A stretch of 64,000 bases of DNA, taken from contig JAEMRT010000006.1 of assembly GCA_016463225.1 (NCBI GenBank), forward strand, positions 32,917-96,916, written 5' to 3'. The notes under the pieces were generated by a model, which saw only the letters and a list, made by a program, of their open reading frames with translations, made no database searches and was not told the DNA's origin. Shown here in pieces: positions 1,007 to 44,493 of this stretch. This DNA is from Sphingopyxis sp. (GTDB lineage: Bacteria > Pseudomonadota > Alphaproteobacteria > Sphingomonadales > Sphingomonadaceae). How positions within the stretch are numbered: position 1 is the stretch's first letter; every line of letters starts with the position of its first letter. A program made the position numbers and the translations under genes.

Positions 1007-4000
1007 ATGCGCCTATCCCGCTTTTTCATCGACCGGCCGATCTTTGCTGCCGTGCTCGCCGTCATCATCACCATTGTCGGTGCGGTCGCCTATATCGGCC
1101 TGCCGGTCTCGCAATATCCCGACATCGTTCCCCCGACGGTGACCGTGACCGCGACCTATCCCGGCGCCTCGGCCGAAACCGTTGCCGACACGGTGGCGGC
1201 GCCGATCGAGCAGGAAATCAATGGCGTCGACAAGATGCTCTATATGAGCAGCCAGTCGACCGGCGACGGCGTCGTGACGATCACCGCGACCTTCAAGATC
1301 GGCACCGACCTCGATGCCGCGCAGGTGCTGGTGCAGAACCGCGTCGCGATCGCAACCCCGCGCCTGCCCGAAACGGTACAGCGCCTCGGCGTCGTAACGC
1401 GCAAGACCTCGCCCGACTTCCTGTTGATCGTGAACCTCGTGTCCCCCGACAAGTCGCTCGATCGCGCCTATATCTCCAACTACGCGCTGACCCAGCTCCG
1501 CGATCGCCTCAGCCGCATCGACGGCGTCGGCGACGTGCGCCTGTTCGGCAGCCGCGACTATGCGATGCGCGTGTGGATCGACCCCGGCCGCGCGGCCGCG
1601 CTCGACCTGACCGCGGGCGAGATCGTTGCGGCGCTGCGGCGCGAGAATGTGCAGGTTGCCGCGGGTACGCTGGGCCAGCCGCCGCATGCCAATGGCAGCA
1701 GCTTCCAATTGAGCGTCGAAACGCAGGGCCGCCTGACCGATCCCAAGGATTTCGCCAATATCGTCATCCGCAGCGATGCCGACGGGCGGCAGGTCCGCGT
1801 CTCGGACGTCGCGCGCGTCGAGCTTGGCGCATCGGACTATAATTCGAACACTTATCTGTCGGGCGACCCGACGGTGATCCTCGCGACCTTTCAGCGGCCT
1901 GGATCAAATGCGCTTGCTGCAGCGCAAGCGGTCGAGGCCGAGATGGCGGCGGCATCGAAAAGCTTCCCCAAGGGCCTCGAATATCGCGTCATCTACAACC
2001 CCACCGAATTCATCGCCCAGTCGATCGATGCGGTGATGGAAACGCTGCTCGAGGCGGTATTCCTCGTGGTGATCGTCATTCTGGTGTTCCTGCAGAAATG
2101 GCGCGCCGCAATCATCCCCGTGCTGGCGATCCCGGTGTCGCTGATCGGCACCTTCGTCGTGCTCGCGGCGTTCGGCTACAGCCTCAACAACCTGTCACTG
2201 TTCGGACTGGTGCTCGCAATCGGCATCGTCGTCGACGACGCGATCGTCGTCGTCGAGAATGTCGAACGCAACCTCGAACGCGGGCTTTCCTCGCTCGAAG
2301 CCGCGCGGACATCGATGGACGAAGTGTCGGGTGCCCTTGTTGCCATCGTGCTCGTGCTTTGCGCGGTGTTCGTGCCGACCCTGTTCCTCACCGGCCTGTC
2401 GGGCGCCTTTTATCAGCAGTTCGCGGTGACGATATCGACCGCAACGATCATCTCGCTGGTCCTGTCGCTTACCCTGTCGCCTGCGCTGGCCGCGATCCTG
2501 CTCAAGCCGCATGCCCCCGCGCAGGCCGACGGATGGCTGATGGCGCGCCTTCACCGTGCCGGTGACAGCTTCAATCGCAATTTCGAGAAGATGAGCGATG
2601 GCTATGCACGCCTGACCGACCGGCTGGTGCGCGCGCCGAAAAAGATGATGATCACCTATGCCGCGCTGATCGCTGCGACCGCGGGCCTGTTCTGGGCGAC
2701 GCCGACCGGCTTCATCCCGGCGCAGGACCAGGGCTATTTCCTCGTCGTCGCCAAACTGCCCGCGGGCGCCTCGGTCGAACGCACCGATGCGGTGCTGAAA
2801 AAGGTCGCTGGCCGCGTGTTGCCGATCAAGGGCGTGCTCGGCTCGGTGATGCTCGCGGGCTTCGACGGCCCGTCGCAGACGCTCGCGCCGAACTCGGCCG
2901 CCGCCTATTTCCCGCTCAAGTCGTTCGAGGAGCGCGGGAAGCTCGGCGTCAATTTCGAGGACATCATGAATCAGGCGCGTGCGAACACGGCGGATATCAC
3001 CGAGGCGCAGATCGTCATGATCCCGCCGCCGCTGATCCAGGGGATCGGCTCGGCGGGTGGCTACCGGATGATCGTGCAGGATCGCGGCGGAAACGGCTAT
3101 GCCGCGCTTGCGAACGAAACGAACAATCTGATCGGCAAGGCGAACCAGACCCCGGGGCTCGCCAACGTCTTCACCTTCTTCGATCCGTCGAACCCGCGCG
3201 TCTATGCCGATATCGACCGGGCCAAGGCGAATATGCTCGGCATACCCCCCGAACGCGTTTTCGAAGCGCTGCAGGTCTATCTGGGGTCGGCGTTTGTCAA
3301 CGACTTCAACCTGCTCGGCCGCACCTATCGTGTGACCGCGCAGGCCGATGCCCCCTATCGCCAGACCGTCGCCGATATCGCGAACCTGCAAACACGGTCG
3401 AACAGCGGCGCGATGGTGCCGATCGGGTCGGTCGCGAATTTCGAGGACCGCACCGGACCGTACCGCGTCACGCGCTACAATCTCTTCCCCGCGGTCGAGA
3501 TCGACGGCGACACCGCCCCCGGTTCGTCGTCGGGCGCGTCGCTTACGACGATGGAAAAGCTCGCGGCGGACTCGCTGCCCGCGGGTTACGGCACCGAATG
3601 GACGGGCATCGCCTCCCAGCAAAAGGCGGCGGCGAACACCGCGGGCATCGTCTTCGCGCTCGCCGTGGTCTTCGTCTTCCTCGTACTCGCGGCCCAATAT
3701 GAAAGCCTGATGCTGCCATTGGCGATCATCTTCATCGTGCCGATGTGTCTGCTCGCGGCGATGGTCGGGGTGAATTTGCGCGGCATGGATAACAATGTGC
3801 TGACGCAGATCGGGCTGGTCGTGCTCATCGCGCTTGCGGCGAAGAATGCGATCCTGATCGTCGAATTCGCCAAGCAGGCCGAGGAACAGGATGGCCTGTC
3901 GCCGATCGAAGCCGCGGTGCGCGCCGCGCGCGACCGTCTGCGTCCGATCCTGATGACCAGCTTTGCCTTCATCCTCGGCGCGGTGCCGTTGCTGATCGCA

Positions 4001-37153: not shown

Positions 37154-38176
37154 TCACCCTTTCGTCACCTCGACAACAGTCGCCCCGTTCGACCTTTCGC
37201 TGGTTCGAAATCCAACGCCGGTAAACCTATCGATCAATGCCGCCGCAGTCAGCGTGTGCTGGCTCAGTTTTACCGTGGTAAATGCACCCCGCCGCGCAAT
37301 GGCAAAGGGCAGTAGCAGTTGATCCTGCAAATAGGGGCCGGCGAAAGCCTCGCAGGCGAGGTAGCCTGCCATACGCTTGGCCGCCGTCTTAGCAAGGCGC
37401 TCCGCCGGGACGCCGATCTTGCCGAACGCTGAGATGATCTCGGTGACGTTCTCGAAAGCCGCCTCAAGCAGCAGCGCGTTGCCCGGCCCGTGGTCGGCAG
37501 GAAGCTGGCGCGTTGCGAAGGCATCGTCGGGCCAGTCAGCCAAAACCTTGCGCGCGCTTTTCAGCTCGCGGTCGGCTACATCGAAGGGGATGCCGGCGAC
37601 AATCGCCGTCGCTTGTACGCTGCGCAGCGCCCCGCGATCGATGCAGTCGACCGGACGAAGCGGCGCGGGAGCAATATCGACCTCAATCCGGCCGCCGCCC
37701 CGCGGGAAAAAGCCGTGGCGGATCAGCCGCGCCGACACGGCCGGACCCATGCGGTTGACCACCGGCAGCAGCGTGCGTTCGAGGAATTCGAACGGCGGGG
37801 CAGCCATCGCATGCGTTCCGCCCTCGATGACGAGACGCGACGGAGCGTCGGCCAGCATCAGCGGCACGAGGATCGTCTGGAGAACCAGTCCGGTGCTGCC
37901 CGCCGTGCCCACCGCGAAATGATAGTCGCCGGGCGTCACGCGACCGGGGCGGAAGGAAATGCTGTTCGATCCGACGGCCAGCCCGCTGCATTCGGCCGCG
38001 CCGATCACGCACGCCGCTTCGATCGCGGTCACATGCTGGCGCATGAGCCCCGGCTTCTCGCGCCCGCGCCGGATGTTTTCGATCGTGAAGGGCTCGCCGG
38101 TCAGCAGCGAAAGCGCGCAAGCATAGCGCAGCACCTGTCCCCCGCCTTCGCCTTCAGAGCCGTCGATGATGATCAT
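37154..38176 (-). CDS. rtcA: RNA 3'-terminal phosphate cyclase
   Basis: MIIIDGSEGEGGGQVLRYACALSLLTGEPFTIENIRRGREKPGLMRQH; HGFFPRGGG. Confidence 0.95.
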   Translation of the reverse strand: MIIIDGSEGEGGGQVLRYACALSLLTGEPFTIENIRRGREKPGLMRQHVTAIEAACVIGAAECSGLAVGSNSISFRPGRVTPGDYHFAVGTAGSTGLVLQTILVPLMLADAPSRLVIEGGTHAMAAPPFEFLERTLLPVVNRMGPAVSARLIRHGFFPRGGGRIEVDIAPAPLRPVDCIDRGALRSVQATAIVAGIPFDVADRELKSARKVLADWPDDAFATRQLPADHGPGNALLLEAAFENVTEIISAFGKIGVPAERLAKTAAKRMAGYLACEAFAGPYLQDQLLLPFAIARRGAFTTVKLSQHTLTAAALIDRFTGVGFRTSERSNGATVVEVTKG

Positions 38177-38955
38177 TCTTCGTCTACCAGTTCCAGAAAC
38201 AAGTCGTTTGCGTCTGCCGCAAAAGCTTCGATTGGCGGTCGCGCCGGCACCTCGCCGGCACGCGCCAACTCGTCCGCGATCAGCGCGTCGATCTCGGGCA
38301 CGCGTGCGATCGGTCCCGCCTCGCGCGTGTCCGCCTTCATCGCCACCAGCTGCTCGATCTCTTCGATGGCCGAAGACGAAAGGTCAGCCTCCGCCATCAG
38401 CTGCTGCAACTGCATCGGCGGCCGGCGGGATGGATCGCGCCGCAGTACACGGATCGCCAAGGCAGGGCGCAGCGCATAGAAATAGCGCTTTACCGCCACT
38501 TCGCTCTCATCCTGCAACCAGCGCGCAATCGCGGTCCGGCCAAGCTTGGCATAATGCAGCGCAAAACCATTCGGATCGAAGTGGCGGTCCTTCAGTTCAG
38601 CCATCCGCGCGATCACGGGATGGGCATTGCGATACTCGATCGGCGATCCGATCCATTCGGAGAGCACCGAATTGTTGCGCAGCATTAACCCCAGCGCCTT
38701 GCGGATATCCCAGCCGTTCAAGTCGATCTCGTCGACGATCGGCCGCTTGATCACGTCACGCACCGGGCTGAGCGCCAGATAGTCGCGGCGCGGCCGGACA
38801 TAGAGAAAGCGCACGTCATAATCGCTGTCGGGCGACGGGAAACCCCACGCCCGCGACCCCGATTCGATCGCGAGCAACAGGCGCACGCTGTCCTCCGCCT
38901 CGACGGCGGACAGGCGGGTTTCGATTTCGCGGCGCACGGAAGCCCCAATGGTCAT
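38173..38955 (-). CDS. Nucleotidyltransferase of the RlaP type (RNA-repair-associated pol-beta family)
   Basis: IESGSRAWGFPSPDSDYDVRFLYVRPRRDYL; ATGA overlaps on both sides within the rtc operon. Confidence 0.85.
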   Translation of the reverse strand: MTIGASVRREIETRLSAVEAEDSVRLLLAIESGSRAWGFPSPDSDYDVRFLYVRPRRDYLALSPVRDVIKRPIVDEIDLNGWDIRKALGLMLRNNSVLSEWIGSPIEYRNAHPVIARMAELKDRHFDPNGFALHYAKLGRTAIARWLQDESEVAVKRYFYALRPALAIRVLRRDPSRRPPMQLQQLMAEADLSSSAIEEIEQLVAMKADTREAGPIARVPEIDALIADELARAGEVPARPPIEAFAADANDLFLELVDEE

Positions 38956-39374
38956 GTCTCCAACTTTCTCAATTCCGTTCCATCGGGATCCGCGATGAAC
39001 AAATAAGGTGTCCAGCAATCGGTCATCTTCGTGCCAATCTCTGCCTTGCAGGATTTGCAACGAATATTCGGGCCACCACATCCGGAAAGGCCACAGCATC
39101 CGCCGAGACGGCGAGAATCCCCGACCAACTCGGTAAAGGCCTCGACGTCGTCGGGATTGGTCCAAATCTGCGCTACGAAATCGAGCGAATTGGGTTCGTC
39201 GAACGATGTGATGAATGGCTTATCGGATTTATAGGCCGTACCATGATCGGTCACCGGCTGCTGGTCGGCAAGCGTCGGCGCTTCGACCGCCGGATCCTTC
39301 GTCGAAAGAAAATTCAATTCATTCGACAATGGCGCGCCGCAAGTTGTGCAAAATAATTGGCCCTTCATCGTCAT
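38952..39374 (-). CDS. Small Cys-rich hypothetical protein (zinc-ribbon-like) in the rtc operon
   Basis: FCTTCGAPL; RLGGCCGLSGCGGPNIRCKSCKAEIGTKMTDCWTPYLF; ATGA overlap with rlaP-like gene. Confidence 0.75.
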   Translation of the reverse strand: MTMKGQLFCTTCGAPLSNELNFLSTKDPAVEAPTLADQQPVTDHGTAYKSDKPFITSFDEPNSLDFVAQIWTNPDDVEAFTELVGDSRRLGGCCGLSGCGGPNIRCKSCKAEIGTKMTDCWTPYLFIADPDGTELRKLET

Positions 39375-39387
39375 ATCCCCGATAGCG

Positions 39388-39413
39388 GCGTGAAGGGGAT
39401 CACCCCTTCACGC
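39388..39413 (-). promoter_or_regulatory. 11-bp perfect hairpin with the rtcB stop codon in its loop
   Basis: Minus strand GCGTGAAGGGG-TGAT-CCCCTTCACGC. Confidence 0.6.
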
Positions 39414-40626
39414 ACACCACCTGCTTCAGCGTATGAACGATCTCGACGAGGTCGGCCTGCGCCGCCATCACCGCCTCGATCGGCTTATACGCCTTTGGCG
39501 TTTCGTCGATGACGCCTTCGTCCTTACGGCATTCGACGCCAGCGGTGTCAGCGATATGCTCGTCGAGCGTGACGAGCTTTTTCGCCGCGGTCCGGCTCAT
39601 AACCCGGCCCGCACCATGGCTGCAGCTATCGAAGGATTCCGGGTTGCCGAGCCCGCGCACGATGAAGCTTTTTGCCCCCATCGAGCCCGGGATGATCCCC
39701 AGCGTCCCCCTCGCCGCGCGCACCGCCCCCTTGCGGGTGACGAGCACATTCTCGCCGAAGTGGTTCTCGCGCGTCACATAATTGTGATGACAGTTCACCG
39801 CTTCCATCTCGGCCTCGAACGGCTTGGCGATCTGGCGCCGGAGCGCCGCGATCACATTCGCCATCATCATCCGCCGGTTCAGCGCCGCAAAATCCTGCGC
39901 CCAGCCGACCGCCTCGACATATTCGTCGAAATGGTCGGTCCCTTCGGGGAAGTAAGCAAGATCCTCGTCGGGCAGGTTGATGAACCATTTGCGCATGTCC
40001 TGCTTCGCCAGTTCGATGAAGTAGGTGCCGATCGCATTGCCGACGCCGCGCGACCCCGAATGGAGCATCACCCACACCCGCGCATCCTGATCGAGGCAAA
40101 GCTCGATAAAATGGTTGCCCGTTCCGAGCGTCCCCAGATGCACGAGGTTGTTGGTGTTCTTCAGCCGCGGATGCTTCGCGACGAGATGCCCGAAGCGTTC
40201 GGCGAGCGTTGCCCACGCGTCGACGATCGCCGGGGGCGGATCGCCCCACGAACCGGTGTCGCGCTTGCCGCGCCCGACCGAGCGGCCGTGCGGCACCGCC
40301 TGCTCGATCGCACTGCGGATGCCTTCCAGCGTATCGGGCAGGTCGTGCGCCATCAGTGAGGTGCGCGCCGCCATCATGCCGCAGCCGATGTCGACGCCGA
40401 CCGCAGCCGGGATCACCGCACCCTTGGTCGGGATCACCGATCCGACGGTCGCGCCAAGGCCGACATGCACGTCGGGCATCGCCGCGACATGCTTGAACAC
40501 GAACGGCATCCGCGCGGCCTTCGCAAGCTGCGCGCGGGCGCCATCTTCGACCGGGACGCCGCGCGTCCACATCTTGACCGGGCGTCCGCCCTCGACATTG
40601 AGCACTTCGTAAGTCGTCTGGGTCAT
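39400..40626 (-). CDS. rtcB: RNA-splicing ligase RtcB
   Basis: MPDVHVGLGATVGSVIPTKGAVIPAAVGVDIGCGM; HSGSRGVGNAIGTYFIELAKQDM; SHGAGRVMSRTAAK; AAGGAGG ribosome binding site. Confidence 0.96.
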   Translation of the reverse strand: MTQTTYEVLNVEGGRPVKMWTRGVPVEDGARAQLAKAARMPFVFKHVAAMPDVHVGLGATVGSVIPTKGAVIPAAVGVDIGCGMMAARTSLMAHDLPDTLEGIRSAIEQAVPHGRSVGRGKRDTGSWGDPPPAIVDAWATLAERFGHLVAKHPRLKNTNNLVHLGTLGTGNHFIELCLDQDARVWVMLHSGSRGVGNAIGTYFIELAKQDMRKWFINLPDEDLAYFPEGTDHFDEYVEAVGWAQDFAALNRRMMMANVIAALRRQIAKPFEAEMEAVNCHHNYVTRENHFGENVLVTRKGAVRAARGTLGIIPGSMGAKSFIVRGLGNPESFDSCSHGAGRVMSRTAAKKLVTLDEHIADTAGVECRKDEGVIDETPKAYKPIEAVMAAQADLVEIVHTLKQVVCVKG

Positions 40627-40654: not shown

Positions 40655-40758
40655 TGCCGGCGACGAGTTTTGGCGAGACATTCCGGATTTCTCCGGCGCG
40701 GATTCGAACCGCTAGCCTTTCGGCCTACCCGATGTAGTCCCACCGGCATTCGCCAGCA
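40655..40758 (-). ncRNA. Y-RNA-like ncRNA 3 (minimal form: Y stem, GAAA hairpin, T-arm, GAAA-capped hairpin; no D-arm)
   Basis: Stem TGCTGGCGA/TCGCCGGCA; T-arm GCGGTTCGAATCCGC; CCGGA-GAAA-TCCGG; conserved GGACTACAT and AATGTC. Confidence 0.75.
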
Positions 40759-40768
40759 TGTTTGATAG

Positions 40769-40904
40769 AGGGTCACGGCGACGAGGATTGAAAAGACATT
40801 CGTGCTCTACCAGACTGAGCTACCGCTCGTTTCCGACCGGGCGGGATTCGAACCCGCGACACCGACATTATCAATGTAGTCCTTCCGGCATTCGCCGTGA
40901 TCCT
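40769..40904 (-). ncRNA. Y-RNA-like ncRNA 2 with permuted tRNA-like module, acceptor-like stem capped by GAAA
   Basis: Stem AGGaTCACGGCGA/TCGCCGTGAcCCT; GCGGGTTCGAATCCCGC; CCGGTCG-GAAA-CGAGCGG; D-arm GCTCAGTCTGGTAGAGC. Confidence 0.82.
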
Positions 40905-40918
40905 GTTGGCTCTTCATT

Positions 40919-41080
40919 CGAAGTGTCACGGCGACGAGGTTTAGCAAAGACATTGCCCCTAAGGGCGCCGCTCTATCCGCTAAGCTACAGGCCCGCATCA
41001 TGGTGGACCCGGCGGGATTCGAACCCGCGCCTGCATCGTGACAGGATGTAGTCCTTCCCGGCATTCGCCGTGACACTTCG
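40919..41080 (-). ncRNA. Y-RNA-like ncRNA 1 with permuted tRNA-like module
   Basis: Perfect 16-bp stem CGAAGTGTCACGGCGA/TCGCCGTGACACTTCG; T-arm GCGGGTTCGAATCCCGC; acceptor-like CGGGTCC+ACCA pairing GGGCCTG; D-arm GCTTAGCGGATAGAGC. Confidence 0.85.
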
Positions 41081-41083
41081 TAG

Positions 41084-42631
41084 TCATACCTCCACTTCGT
41101 TGACGATCTGGACCCAGTCGCGCGTTTCGCCAGCAGCGAAGCGCGCCATTGCGCCAAAGACCGCGTCGGTGAAACCACCGACATTCATGATATCCTTCCG
41201 GTCCCTGGCCTGCGTGGTGCCATAGGGCTGGATGTCGATGCAGATCAGCTTCGCGCCCGGGTTACGGACCTTCAGCTTCGTCCACTCGTTCATCGTCGCC
41301 GTGGCGCCACGCCGGGTCGGATCGACCCAGCTTTCATTGTCCGAAACGATCACAACGGTATCGACCTTCGCGCGCTCGGCGTTGAGCCGGGCGAGCGGAG
41401 CCGAGACATTTGTCCCGCCGCCGCCGATCGCTGCCAGCCGCGCGGCGTTGACCGCAAGGCGTGCCTTGGGATCGAGCGCCATGTCGACGACATCGACTTC
41501 GAACGGCATCACCCGCGCCGACCGGTTGGTGCGCAGCATCGCCGCCGCGACCAGCGCCGCGATGTCGATGCAGCGGACCTTCGAGGTCGCGCCCTTGCGG
41601 TGGCCGGTCGCTGCCGAGCCCATCGAGCCCGACACGTCCGGACAGACAATGATGTTGCCCGCCAGCACCGGAACCGTTGCAAGCGACAGTTCGAGTGCCT
41701 TTTCGAGCGATGCCTGGACCGCTAGCGGAACCGCGTCGCCGACCTGATCGAGCGCGATCATCAGGTGATAGGGCGCGGGCTTGATCTTCGCGATCGCCTC
41801 CGCATCCGCCAGCCGTGCCGCGACCGCTTCGGTCACCCCCGCCACGTCGAACGCACCATTGCGCGCCAGCGTGTTGAGGTTCATGCGCAGCGCCTGCCAG
41901 CCCATGCGAACCGCAAGATCGCCCCACTGTTCCGCCGAGAGCGGAAATGCGGTCAGCCATTCGAACGGCACCGGGGGGAGCGGCCCCGAGGGGTCGCGCT
42001 TCCAGGCTTCGAACGCTGCGATCTCTGCCGGCAGCGCAGCGACTTCATAGGGCTTGCCGATCAGCCAGCCGTAGAAGGCGCGTCGCTCCGCCGAAGCCGG
42101 CGCCGGGTGGACCATGCGAACGATGTCGGCGAGGCTCGGGTCGTTGCCCGTCGCTGCCGTCATCAACTGGCGCATCGAAGCCGTTTCCAGCCATTGACGC
42201 ACCAGCCGCTTCGGCCGCGAGCCGAGCGAACGGCGCCCGATCTGGCCCGACCGCATGATCTGCACGAAATTGCGCAGCATGCGGCCGTTATCGATCACGC
42301 GGCCGAATACCGGCACGGCGAGATCGGGATCGGCGACGGTCAGATAAGCGGCGAGCAGCGCCGGCATATCCTTCATCGCACCCGACTGGCGCGCATAGAT
42401 CGCCGCCTTGGCAACAAACCCCGGCGACACCGCTTGCGCCGCCGACAGGACATCGGCGAGCTGCGCGTCGGCGCCCGAATAGAAGCCATCCGACAGCGTG
42501 CCGGTCGCGGCCAGCTGTGCAAGCTTCGCTTCGGCGCCATAGGCATAGGCCGCGCCGCCGGCTTCATTCACCGTGTCGGTGCGCGGCAGGAAGCGCGAGA
42601 GCGCCGTGGAAAACAGGGACTTGTTGGCCAT
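41084..42631 (-). CDS. rsr: TROVE domain protein, Ro60 ortholog (Rsr)
   Basis: HEAT-like TROVE region AAIYARQSGAMKDMPALLAAYLTV; vWA-like IIVCPDVSGSMGSAATGHR; adjacent Y-RNA-like genes and rtcB. Confidence 0.92.
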   Translation of the reverse strand: MANKSLFSTALSRFLPRTDTVNEAGGAAYAYGAEAKLAQLAATGTLSDGFYSGADAQLADVLSAAQAVSPGFVAKAAIYARQSGAMKDMPALLAAYLTVADPDLAVPVFGRVIDNGRMLRNFVQIMRSGQIGRRSLGSRPKRLVRQWLETASMRQLMTAATGNDPSLADIVRMVHPAPASAERRAFYGWLIGKPYEVAALPAEIAAFEAWKRDPSGPLPPVPFEWLTAFPLSAEQWGDLAVRMGWQALRMNLNTLARNGAFDVAGVTEAVAARLADAEAIAKIKPAPYHLMIALDQVGDAVPLAVQASLEKALELSLATVPVLAGNIIVCPDVSGSMGSAATGHRKGATSKVRCIDIAALVAAAMLRTNRSARVMPFEVDVVDMALDPKARLAVNAARLAAIGGGGTNVSAPLARLNAERAKVDTVVIVSDNESWVDPTRRGATATMNEWTKLKVRNPGAKLICIDIQPYGTTQARDRKDIMNVGGFTDAVFGAMARFAAGETRDWVQIVNEVEV

Positions 42632-42739: not shown

Positions 42740-42757
42740 TGCAGAAGACGTGCCAAA
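42740..42757 (-). promoter_or_regulatory. Sigma-54 (-24/-12) promoter for the rsr-Y-rtc operon
   Basis: Minus strand TTTGGCACGTCTTCTGCA; GG-N10-GC spacing, near consensus TGGCACGNNNNTTGCW. Confidence 0.8.
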
Positions 42758-42800: not shown

Positions 42801-42897
42801 GTAATAAGATTATAAATCTTCTTGAGATGTGGAAACGAGGCGTTAGACCTATATGATTATCTTGTATCGTAATTTATCCTAGAATATAAGTGTGATC

Positions 42898-44493
42898 ATG
42901 AAGCCCACTACCGTCATCGGATTTCTCGGCTCGACTCTCGATGCCGCCAAATTCGGACCCTCGCGCTGGAACAAGTGGCGGCCGACGGTCAGCATCTGCA
43001 TGCAGGAAGACTTGCGGGTCGATCGCTTCATCCTGCTGCACGGCCGCTATCACAGCCGTCTCGCTGAATATGTGGCCGATGATATCCGTGACATATCGCC
43101 CGAGACTGAGGTCGTCCCACAACTCCTCGACTTCGACGACGCCTGGGATTTCGAGGAAGTTTATGGAAAGCTGCTCGACTTCGCGCGCGCCTTTCCCTTC
43201 GACCCCGACAATCAAGATTATCTGGTCCACATCACGACCGGCACCCATGTCGCGCAAATTTGCCTCTTTCTCCTGACTGAGGCGCGCTATCTGCCCGGGC
43301 GGCTGCTCCAGACCCAGCCGCAGCGTGGCGCACCGCAGCCGATCGGGACGTGGAGCGCCATCGACCTCGACCTGTCGCGTTACGACAGCATCGCGACGCG
43401 CTTTGCCGAGGCGAGCGCCGAGAGCACGAGCTTTCTGAAAAGCGGCATCGAGACGCGCAATGCCGCCTTCAACCGAATGATCGAGGAGATTGAGCAGGTC
43501 GCGGTACGCAGCCGCGCGCCGATCCTGCTGATGGGTCCGACCGGCGCCGGCAAGAGCCAGCTCTCGCGCAAGATTTACGAGCTCAAGAAGCTGCGCCACC
43601 AGATCGCGGGCCCTTTCGTCGAAGTTAATTGCGCGACGTTGAAGGGCGACAGCGCGATGTCGGCGCTGTTCGGCCACCGCAAGGGCGCTTTTACCGGCGC
43701 GGCACAGGATCGCCCCGGCCTGCTCAAGTCGGCCGACAAGGGGTTGCTATTCCTCGATGAAATTGGCGAGCTTGGCCTCGACGAGCAGGCGATGATCCTG
43801 CGCGCGATCGAGGAAGGACGCTTCCTTCCCGTGGGCGCCGACAGCGAAGCGAAGAGCGAATTCCAGCTGATCGCCGGCACCAACCGCGACCTCGTCCGCG
43901 AGGTTGTCGCCGGTCGCTTCCGCGAAGATCTGTTCGCTCGCCTCAACCTGTGGACCTTCAGCCTGCCGGGGCTTGCGGCGCGCCGCGAGGATATCGCCCC
44001 TAATCTCGACTACGAGCTGGAGCGCTTCGCCGAACGCGAAGGGGCACGGGTCACCTTCAACAAGGAGGCGCGCGACAAATTTTTGAGCTTTGCCGAGAAC
44101 TCGGCCGCGCTGTGGAAAGGCAATTTCCGCGACCTTGCCGCCAGCGTCACCCGCATGGCAACGCTCAGCGCGACAGGGCGCATCGATTCCGATGCGGTCG
44201 CCCTCGAGACGGGCAGGCTGCGGTCGCTTTGGTCGACCGACGATGCTCAGGGCGATGCGCTCGACCATTTGCTATCGTCCGACCAGCTCAAACGGATCGA
44301 TCCCTTCGATCGGGTTCAGCTCGGCTATGTTGTCGATATCTGTCGTCAGAGCGCTAGCCTTTCGGCGGCGGGGCGTTCGCTGTTTTCGGCGTCGCGCGAA
44401 GAGCGTCGATCAACCAACGATGCGGACCGGTTGCGGAAATATCTCGCGCGCTTCGATCTCGACTGGAGCATTGTCACGGCAAGCAGCGATTAA
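42898..44493 (+). CDS. rtcR: Sigma-54-dependent transcriptional activator RtcR
   Basis: N-terminal KPTTVIGFLGSTLDAAKFGPSRWNKWRPTVSICMQ (RtcR/CARF-like); GPTGAGKSQL Walker A; GAFTGA motif. Confidence 0.93.
   Translation: MKPTTVIGFLGSTLDAAKFGPSRWNKWRPTVSICMQEDLRVDRFILLHGRYHSRLAEYVADDIRDISPETEVVPQLLDFDDAWDFEEVYGKLLDFARAFPFDPDNQDYLVHITTGTHVAQICLFLLTEARYLPGRLLQTQPQRGAPQPIGTWSAIDLDLSRYDSIATRFAEASAESTSFLKSGIETRNAAFNRMIEEIEQVAVRSRAPILLMGPTGAGKSQLSRKIYELKKLRHQIAGPFVEVNCATLKGDSAMSALFGHRKGAFTGAAQDRPGLLKSADKGLLFLDEIGELGLDEQAMILRAIEEGRFLPVGADSEAKSEFQLIAGTNRDLVREVVAGRFREDLFARLNLWTFSLPGLAARREDIAPNLDYELERFAEREGARVTFNKEARDKFLSFAENSAALWKGNFRDLAASVTRMATLSATGRIDSDAVALETGRLRSLWSTDDAQGDALDHLLSSDQLKRIDPFDRVQLGYVVDICRQSASLSAAGRSLFSASREERRSTNDADRLRKYLARFDLDWSIVTASSD

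Follow-up and report, generated by a model that had tools for sequence, protein, structure and literature searches.

Between the genes for a Ro60/TROVE protein (rsr) and the RNA ligase RtcB, a 64,000-nt stretch of Sphingopyxis DNA (hereafter, the window) carries three minus-strand repeats, and we asked what they encode and whether their tandem arrangement is new. A preliminary description had read them as Y-RNA-like non-coding RNAs, each bounded by a closing stem around a tRNA T arm, and had put forward a tandem triplet of graded complexity as a possible novelty. Our analysis bore out the 457-nt gap (41083–40627, between the rsr stop at 41084 and the rtcB start at 40626), the strand and motifs of the repeats, their closing stems (Table 1; that of unit 1 is perfect) and their T arms (GCGGGTTCGAATCCCGC in units 1 and 2, GCGGTTCGAATCCGC in unit 3). 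The units had been under-described, as units 1 and 2 also contain acceptor and D arms.

Using the Rfam YrlA model (RF02553), we matched all three units, and these were the only YrlA matches in the whole genome. Unit 2 scored 78 bits (E = 2.4e-17), above the gathering cutoff of 69, and units 3 and 1 scored 36–37 bits (E = 2.1e-5 and 2.7e-5, respectively), both below it. The ends of each unit pair and carry the boxes GGCGAAUGC...GUCGCC, as in YrlA-type RNAs; in related genomes these Y stems are kept, with compensatory changes and 98–100% of cells paired. Fold z-scores were -2.83 for unit 2 and -2.90 for unit 3, and that of unit 1 (-1.26) was not exceptional. As expected of YrlA-type Y RNAs, the units are encoded beside a Ro60 protein: window Rsr matched Deinococcus Rsr (2NVO) over residues 18–503 (phmmer, E = 7e-14), and its predicted structure (pLDDT 82.6) aligned over its full length with solved structures of Ro60 (2NVO by Foldseek, E = 5e-16). 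Rfam, the sequence and fold of the Ro60 protein and the covarying Y stems in relatives all support the Y-RNA reading, and the three units are most likely bacterial Y RNAs of the known YrlA kind. They resemble YrlA, which occurs in Salmonella and other bacteria and has a crystal structure (6CU1), in the putative Ro60-binding stem made from both ends, in the two boxes and in the rsr/rtcB neighbourhood. They differ from it in forming three tandem units, in the longer stem and acceptor-loop ACCA of unit 1 and in the lack of a D arm in unit 3. A 97-aa open reading frame antisense to the units (40758–41051, plus strand), encoding GRDSNPR-type peptides, is a typical false gene call across T arms.

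Table 1. Features of the rsr–rtcB array and its surroundings, in window coordinates.
Feature	Position	Strand	Remarks
Y RNA unit 1, class A, canonical YrlA topology	40919..41080	-	16-bp closing stem; contains a permuted tRNA and encodes ACCA
Unit 1 T arm GCGGGTTCGAATCCCGC	41012..41028	-	
Unit 1 acceptor 3' strand CGGGTCC	41005..41011	-	pairs with 40994-40988, 7/7
Unit 1 ACCA	41001..41004	-	discriminator-CCA position, within closed acceptor loop ACCATGATGC
Unit 1 acceptor 5' strand GGGCCTG	40988..40994	-	
Unit 1 D arm GCTTAGCGGATAGAGC	40970..40985	-	U8 A9 at 40987-40986
Y RNA unit 2, class A, canonical YrlA topology	40769..40904	-	13-position closing stem, one A.C mismatch
Unit 2 T arm	40841..40857	-	
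Unit 2 acceptor CCGGTCG-GAAA-CGAGCGG	40823..40840	-	6/7 pairs
Unit 2 D arm GCTCAGTCTGGTAGAGC	40804..40820	-	
Y RNA unit 3, class E, without D arm	40655..40758	-	9-bp closing stem, one wobble
Unit 3 anticodon-like hairpin GGCC-GAAA-GGCT	40714..40725	-	
Unit 3 T arm GCGGTTCGAATCCGC	40698..40712	-	
Unit 3 acceptor-like hairpin CCGGA-GAAA-TCCGG	40683..40696	-	
rsr, Ro60/TROVE protein, 515 aa	41084..42631	-	Pfam vWA_Ro60; phmmer; Foldseek
rtcB RNA ligase	39400..40626	-	start set by ribosome-binding site AAGGAGG
rlaP, RNA-repair nucleotidyltransferase	38173..38961	-	
rtcA RNA 3'-phosphate cyclase	37154..38176	-	
rtcR, sigma-54 activator, divergent	42892..44493	+	
Sigma-54 promoter-like site TGGCACGTCTTCTGCA (TGGCAC-N5-CTGCA), upstream of rsr	42740..42755	-	motif found in 60/80 loci

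The locus reads as a divergent rtcR followed by rsr, the three Y units, rtcB, a small cysteine-rich gene, rlaP and rtcA, and has the hallmarks of an RtcR-type RNA repair operon: rtcB with rtcA, a divergent rtcR and a sigma-54 site. Taken alone, the sigma-54-like site did not exceed the chance expectation for the window; at 60 of 80 related loci, the 400 nt upstream of rsr contained a motif of this type, whereas a stretch of that length is expected to hold 0.036. Between rsr and rtcB, the strand carrying the array showed neither a sigma-70-like promoter nor a terminator, which makes co-transcription of rsr, the units and rtcB likely. The Salmonella rsr–yrlBA–rtcBA operon similarly places rsr, Y RNAs, rtcB and rtcA under a divergent RtcR and sigma-54 (PMC7790460). 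The window departs from it in having three units rather than two, in carrying rlaP and the cysteine-rich gene between rtcB and rtcA, and in its Rsr, which is distant from NCBI's Rsr-naming family model (61.7 bits against a cutoff of 900). The cysteine-rich gene (38952–39374, minus strand), between rtcB and rlaP, encodes a 140-aa protein with CTTC, CCGLSGC and CKSC motifs that had no match in Pfam or NCBIfam; homologues lie downstream of rsr at 6 of the 80 related loci, suggesting that it may be an accessory RNA-repair gene. The distribution of rsr is sporadic (21 of 401 Sphingomonadaceae genomes, and 0 of 10 among the congeners listed), which suggests that the operon is often lost or horizontally transferred.

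We compared the window with the 80 best rsr loci of a genome collection, mostly from Sphingomonadaceae and relatives, with some from Rhodospirillales-type and other alphaproteobacteria, and obtained 79 rsr–rtcB gaps. Because the loci were picked by similarity to the window Ro60, the array statistics describe alphaproteobacteria. In total, these gaps held 304 units (mean 3.85, mostly 3–5, up to 6), counts that are lower bounds because the units were found by pattern. With 2–6 units per gap being usual and at least three present in 74 of the 79, the proposed novelty of a tandem triplet was ruled out. Work by Chen from 2014 reportedly states that each species has at least one tRNA-like Y RNA, and by implication the presence of several Y RNAs in one species was already known.

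Assignment by pattern, with some units reassigned by hand, yielded five main classes: A (110 units), the 'D-open' class D1 (42), the pseudoknotted class D2 (67), E without a D arm (57) and S without a T arm (22). At least three classes occurred together in 71 arrays, and most arrays held 3–5. The number and order of units vary freely among loci. The closest relative (L025; Ro60 93% identical) has units 2 and 3 only, and window unit 1 shares 94% identity with the third unit of a Novosphingobium (L030). Units behave like cassettes. The 'graded complexity' of the preliminary description had a real basis, in several module classes, but these are shuffled between arrays and are not a property of the window locus. 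What looks new is how the modules differ, with D-open and pseudoknotted forms beside the canonical one. Class S units (for example, L087 unit 1 and L100 unit 2) are short Y units made of CATCCTGTCACGATG and one hairpin. The ACCA-type class A units, window unit 1 among them, have the same flanks, as though an S unit had gained or lost a tRNA module.

Read inward from the Y stem, units 1 and 2 present a T arm, the acceptor 3' strand, a loop, the acceptor 5' strand, U8–A9 and a D arm. The module is thus a circularly permuted tRNA in which the acceptor is closed and the anticodon arm is the point of opening. The same order of T arm, acceptor and D arm characterizes YrlA (PMC8394870, PMC11472068), the topology of which has already been described as a circular permutation of tRNA (PMC11472068). 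As in the permuted tRNA genes of algae and archaea, the 3' half precedes the 5' half and the two are joined through the acceptor; those genes, however, mature to tRNAs via a circular intermediate (PMC3978253), whereas the open side of the window modules is fused to the putative Ro60-binding stem. By joining each module end to end (doubled), we could apply ARAGORN without an assumed layout. Both window units were called as tRNAs, as were 82 of 107 class A modules overall, compared with 0 of 535 dinucleotide-shuffled controls; one linear unit was called. The class A acceptor forms a 7-position helix in 82 of 105 units despite very different sequences, and distinct acceptor strand pairs had a mean of 6.51 of 7 positions paired, against 4.27 (maximum 4.65) when strands were swapped between units. 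Units 1 and 2 also contain D- and T-loop sequences; YrlA is modified by the tRNA enzymes DusA and TruB (PMC8394870). An origin of unit 1 from one parental tRNA, with Arg as a candidate, was not supported: the best matches in its own genome, a CAU-anticodon tRNA and two Arg tRNAs, had near-equal scores.

In class D1, the order is D-arm 3' half, anticodon arm, variable loop, T arm, acceptor with a short closing loop, U8–A9 and D-arm 5' half, with the presumed Ro60-binding Y stem entering via the D loop. In an alignment of 39 D1 sequences, 99.2% of cells were paired and 17 pairs had changes on both sides, compared with a shuffled mean of 6.8 and at most 6 in slid controls; all five pairs of the anticodon stem covaried. 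ARAGORN called 3 of 42 circularised D-open modules as tRNAs, a low yield that is probably due to their 4–5-bp acceptor, and we therefore relied on covariation instead. The D stem is nearly invariant in D1 and varies in D2 (A–U to G–C, 10 sequences), where it is lengthened by a covarying GGNCC/GGNCC helix with 23 double changes at one pair. D2 modules form a pseudoknot in which the strand that follows the T arm pairs with one close to the 5' Y stem. Support for this pairing was partial in a fixed register (66.7% of cells) and strong in a register-free test, where the mean helix score was 3.96 against 3.31 ± 0.10 for re-paired strands (0 of 2000), both results being tempered by sequence relatedness. 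The Rfam YrlA model gave D1 units 30–34 bits against its cutoff of 69, chiefly from the Y stems, and had no matches among D2 units at the four loci scanned. For some of the tRNA-like designs in these arrays, none of the RNA-family models consulted offers a description.

A model of the D-open form (R1) was built with the acceptor pairs omitted, since the alignment had put the acceptors of two subgroups out of register. In a survey, half of the genomes yielded matches of ~30–44 bits. A few from the upper end of this range were inspected and proved to be ordinary tRNAs, or tRNA-like genes lacking a Y stem, and we therefore counted matches above 50 bits only. Across 385 alphaproteobacterial and 399 phylum-wide genomes (overlapping sets), such matches came from alphaproteobacteria only (G441, G949 with two, G1021 and G813), and the G949 and G1021 loci carry about six Y units each. 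One unit found by reading, L084 unit 3 (~3287–3430), is D-open, has a GCG/CGC D stem and resembles Leu or Ser tRNAs in its long variable arm; it is apparently modelled on a Leu/Ser-type tRNA and would then be a separate origin of the D-open layout. In another proteobacterium (L185, ~1450–1650), two tRNA-like genes in linear tRNA order lie beside a gene with an RtcR-like N-terminus; they may represent a further kind of tRNA mimic with a link to RNA repair.

Unit 3 departs from the YrlA module in that the D arm is absent and an anticodon-like hairpin precedes the T arm. Class E follows the D-open order (anticodon-like hairpin, T arm, acceptor-like hairpin) without the D strands. With model R1, unit 3 reached 31.2 bits, its missing D strands being left as gaps, against only 16.5 bits for unit 2; as ordinary tRNAs reach ~30–40 bits, the score of unit 3 is weak by itself and the order of its arms is the better argument. 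On that order, unit 3 looks like a D-open unit whose D arm was lost. Class E relatives have 100% of Y-helix cells and 98% of T-arm cells paired; their other hairpins vary little or misalign, and covariation therefore tests the mostly invariant hairpins of unit 3 weakly. Unit 3 is 87–98% identical to its ten nearest units at other loci.

Unit 1 combines a full 7-bp acceptor with ACCA at the exact tRNA position, followed by six nucleotides and the acceptor 5' strand; permuted tRNA genes likewise have CCA and a short intervening sequence at this point (PMC3978253). An N-CCA at the discriminator-CCA position was found in 25 class A units, the remainder of the loop being variable, and the tRNA genes of the window's own genome encode CCA. 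In four of these units the acceptor loop is expanded directly after ACCA (43–45 nt in L037, L041 and L045 unit 3; 24 nt in L104 unit 4), indicating that it tolerates inserts exactly where a processing site would lie. tRNA-processing enzymes are thought to act on the acceptor loops of permuted precursors (PMC3978253). The ACCA of unit 1 could be either a memory of a tRNA ancestor or the sign of a loop cut by such enzymes. On a more speculative scenario, which we think improbable, unit 1 and its ~25 CCA-bearing relatives would be processed like permuted tRNAs: RNase P would open the loop before GGGCC and trimming would expose ACCA, leaving a two-piece tRNA held by the Ro60-bound stem that might be charged or bind CCA-recognising factors. 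More broadly, the arrays would be Ro60 adaptor kits, with tRNAs cut open at different places (at the anticodon arm, at the D loop or with a pseudoknotted acceptor) and grafted on one stem.

We consider it likely that the three units are YrlA-family Y RNAs made from the RtcR/sigma-54 promoter with rsr and rtcB, giving Ro60 alternative tRNA-like adaptors. In Salmonella, tRNA fragments with a 2',3'-cyclic phosphate end activate RtcR (PMC7790460), and YrlA binds Rsr through its stem and PNPase through its tRNA-like tip (PMC8394870). In the window, damaged tRNA would trigger RtcR, and the promoter would transcribe the array together with its neighbouring genes. Each unit would be processed into a hairpin of about 100–160 nt, in which the paired ends form the Ro60-binding stem and the tip is the effector module: in units 1 and 2 a tRNA that is open at its anticodon arm, and in unit 3 a reduced tRNA with the Y stem in the place of the D arm. 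Ro60 would thereby be supplied with several adaptors, each offering a partner its own tRNA-like surface; the partner could be, for example, a tRNA-acting enzyme or PNPase, the latter being a candidate by analogy with work in other bacteria.

The modules might instead be decoys that bait anticodon nucleases, modification enzymes and other tRNA-binding factors during tRNA damage, with Ro60 merely protecting the RNA and several modules covering several factors. Such a role would suit the induction of RtcR by tRNA cleavage and the diversity of modules inside an array, and for Salmonella it has been proposed that YrlA might act as a competitive inhibitor of the nuclease (PMC7790460). However, class A modules have no anticodon loop, the Y stem occupying that place, and YrlA fragments were not detected in Salmonella (PMC7790460), meaning that YrlA is not a substrate itself. 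We regard decoys as unlikely. That the hairpins only space, stabilise or process the rsr–rtcB messenger appears highly improbable: the units do lie exactly in the intergenic gap of one operon, with unit 3 ending ~30 nt before the rtcB start, but their detailed tRNA-like conservation and the compensatory changes in both Y stems and modules go beyond the needs of a spacer, and unit number and order vary freely. Least credible is that duplication left behind tRNA genes or Y units that are now in decay. Unit 3 and class S do appear reduced, and unit 1 is missing from L025; covariation already largely refutes decay, and the close relatives of unit 3 at other loci and the fully paired Y helices of class E also speak against it.

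Read as alternative adaptors for Ro60, the units bear on why bacteria keep Ro60 and Y RNAs in RNA-repair operons, and on the partners of Y RNAs. Arrays that join a constant Ro60-binding stem to differing tRNA-like tips would allow a directly testable comparison of partners per module. To judge from the D-open and pseudoknotted forms, a tRNA fold may have more than one possible site of opening without losing its conservation as a mimic; the tRNA surface itself would then seem to be under selection.
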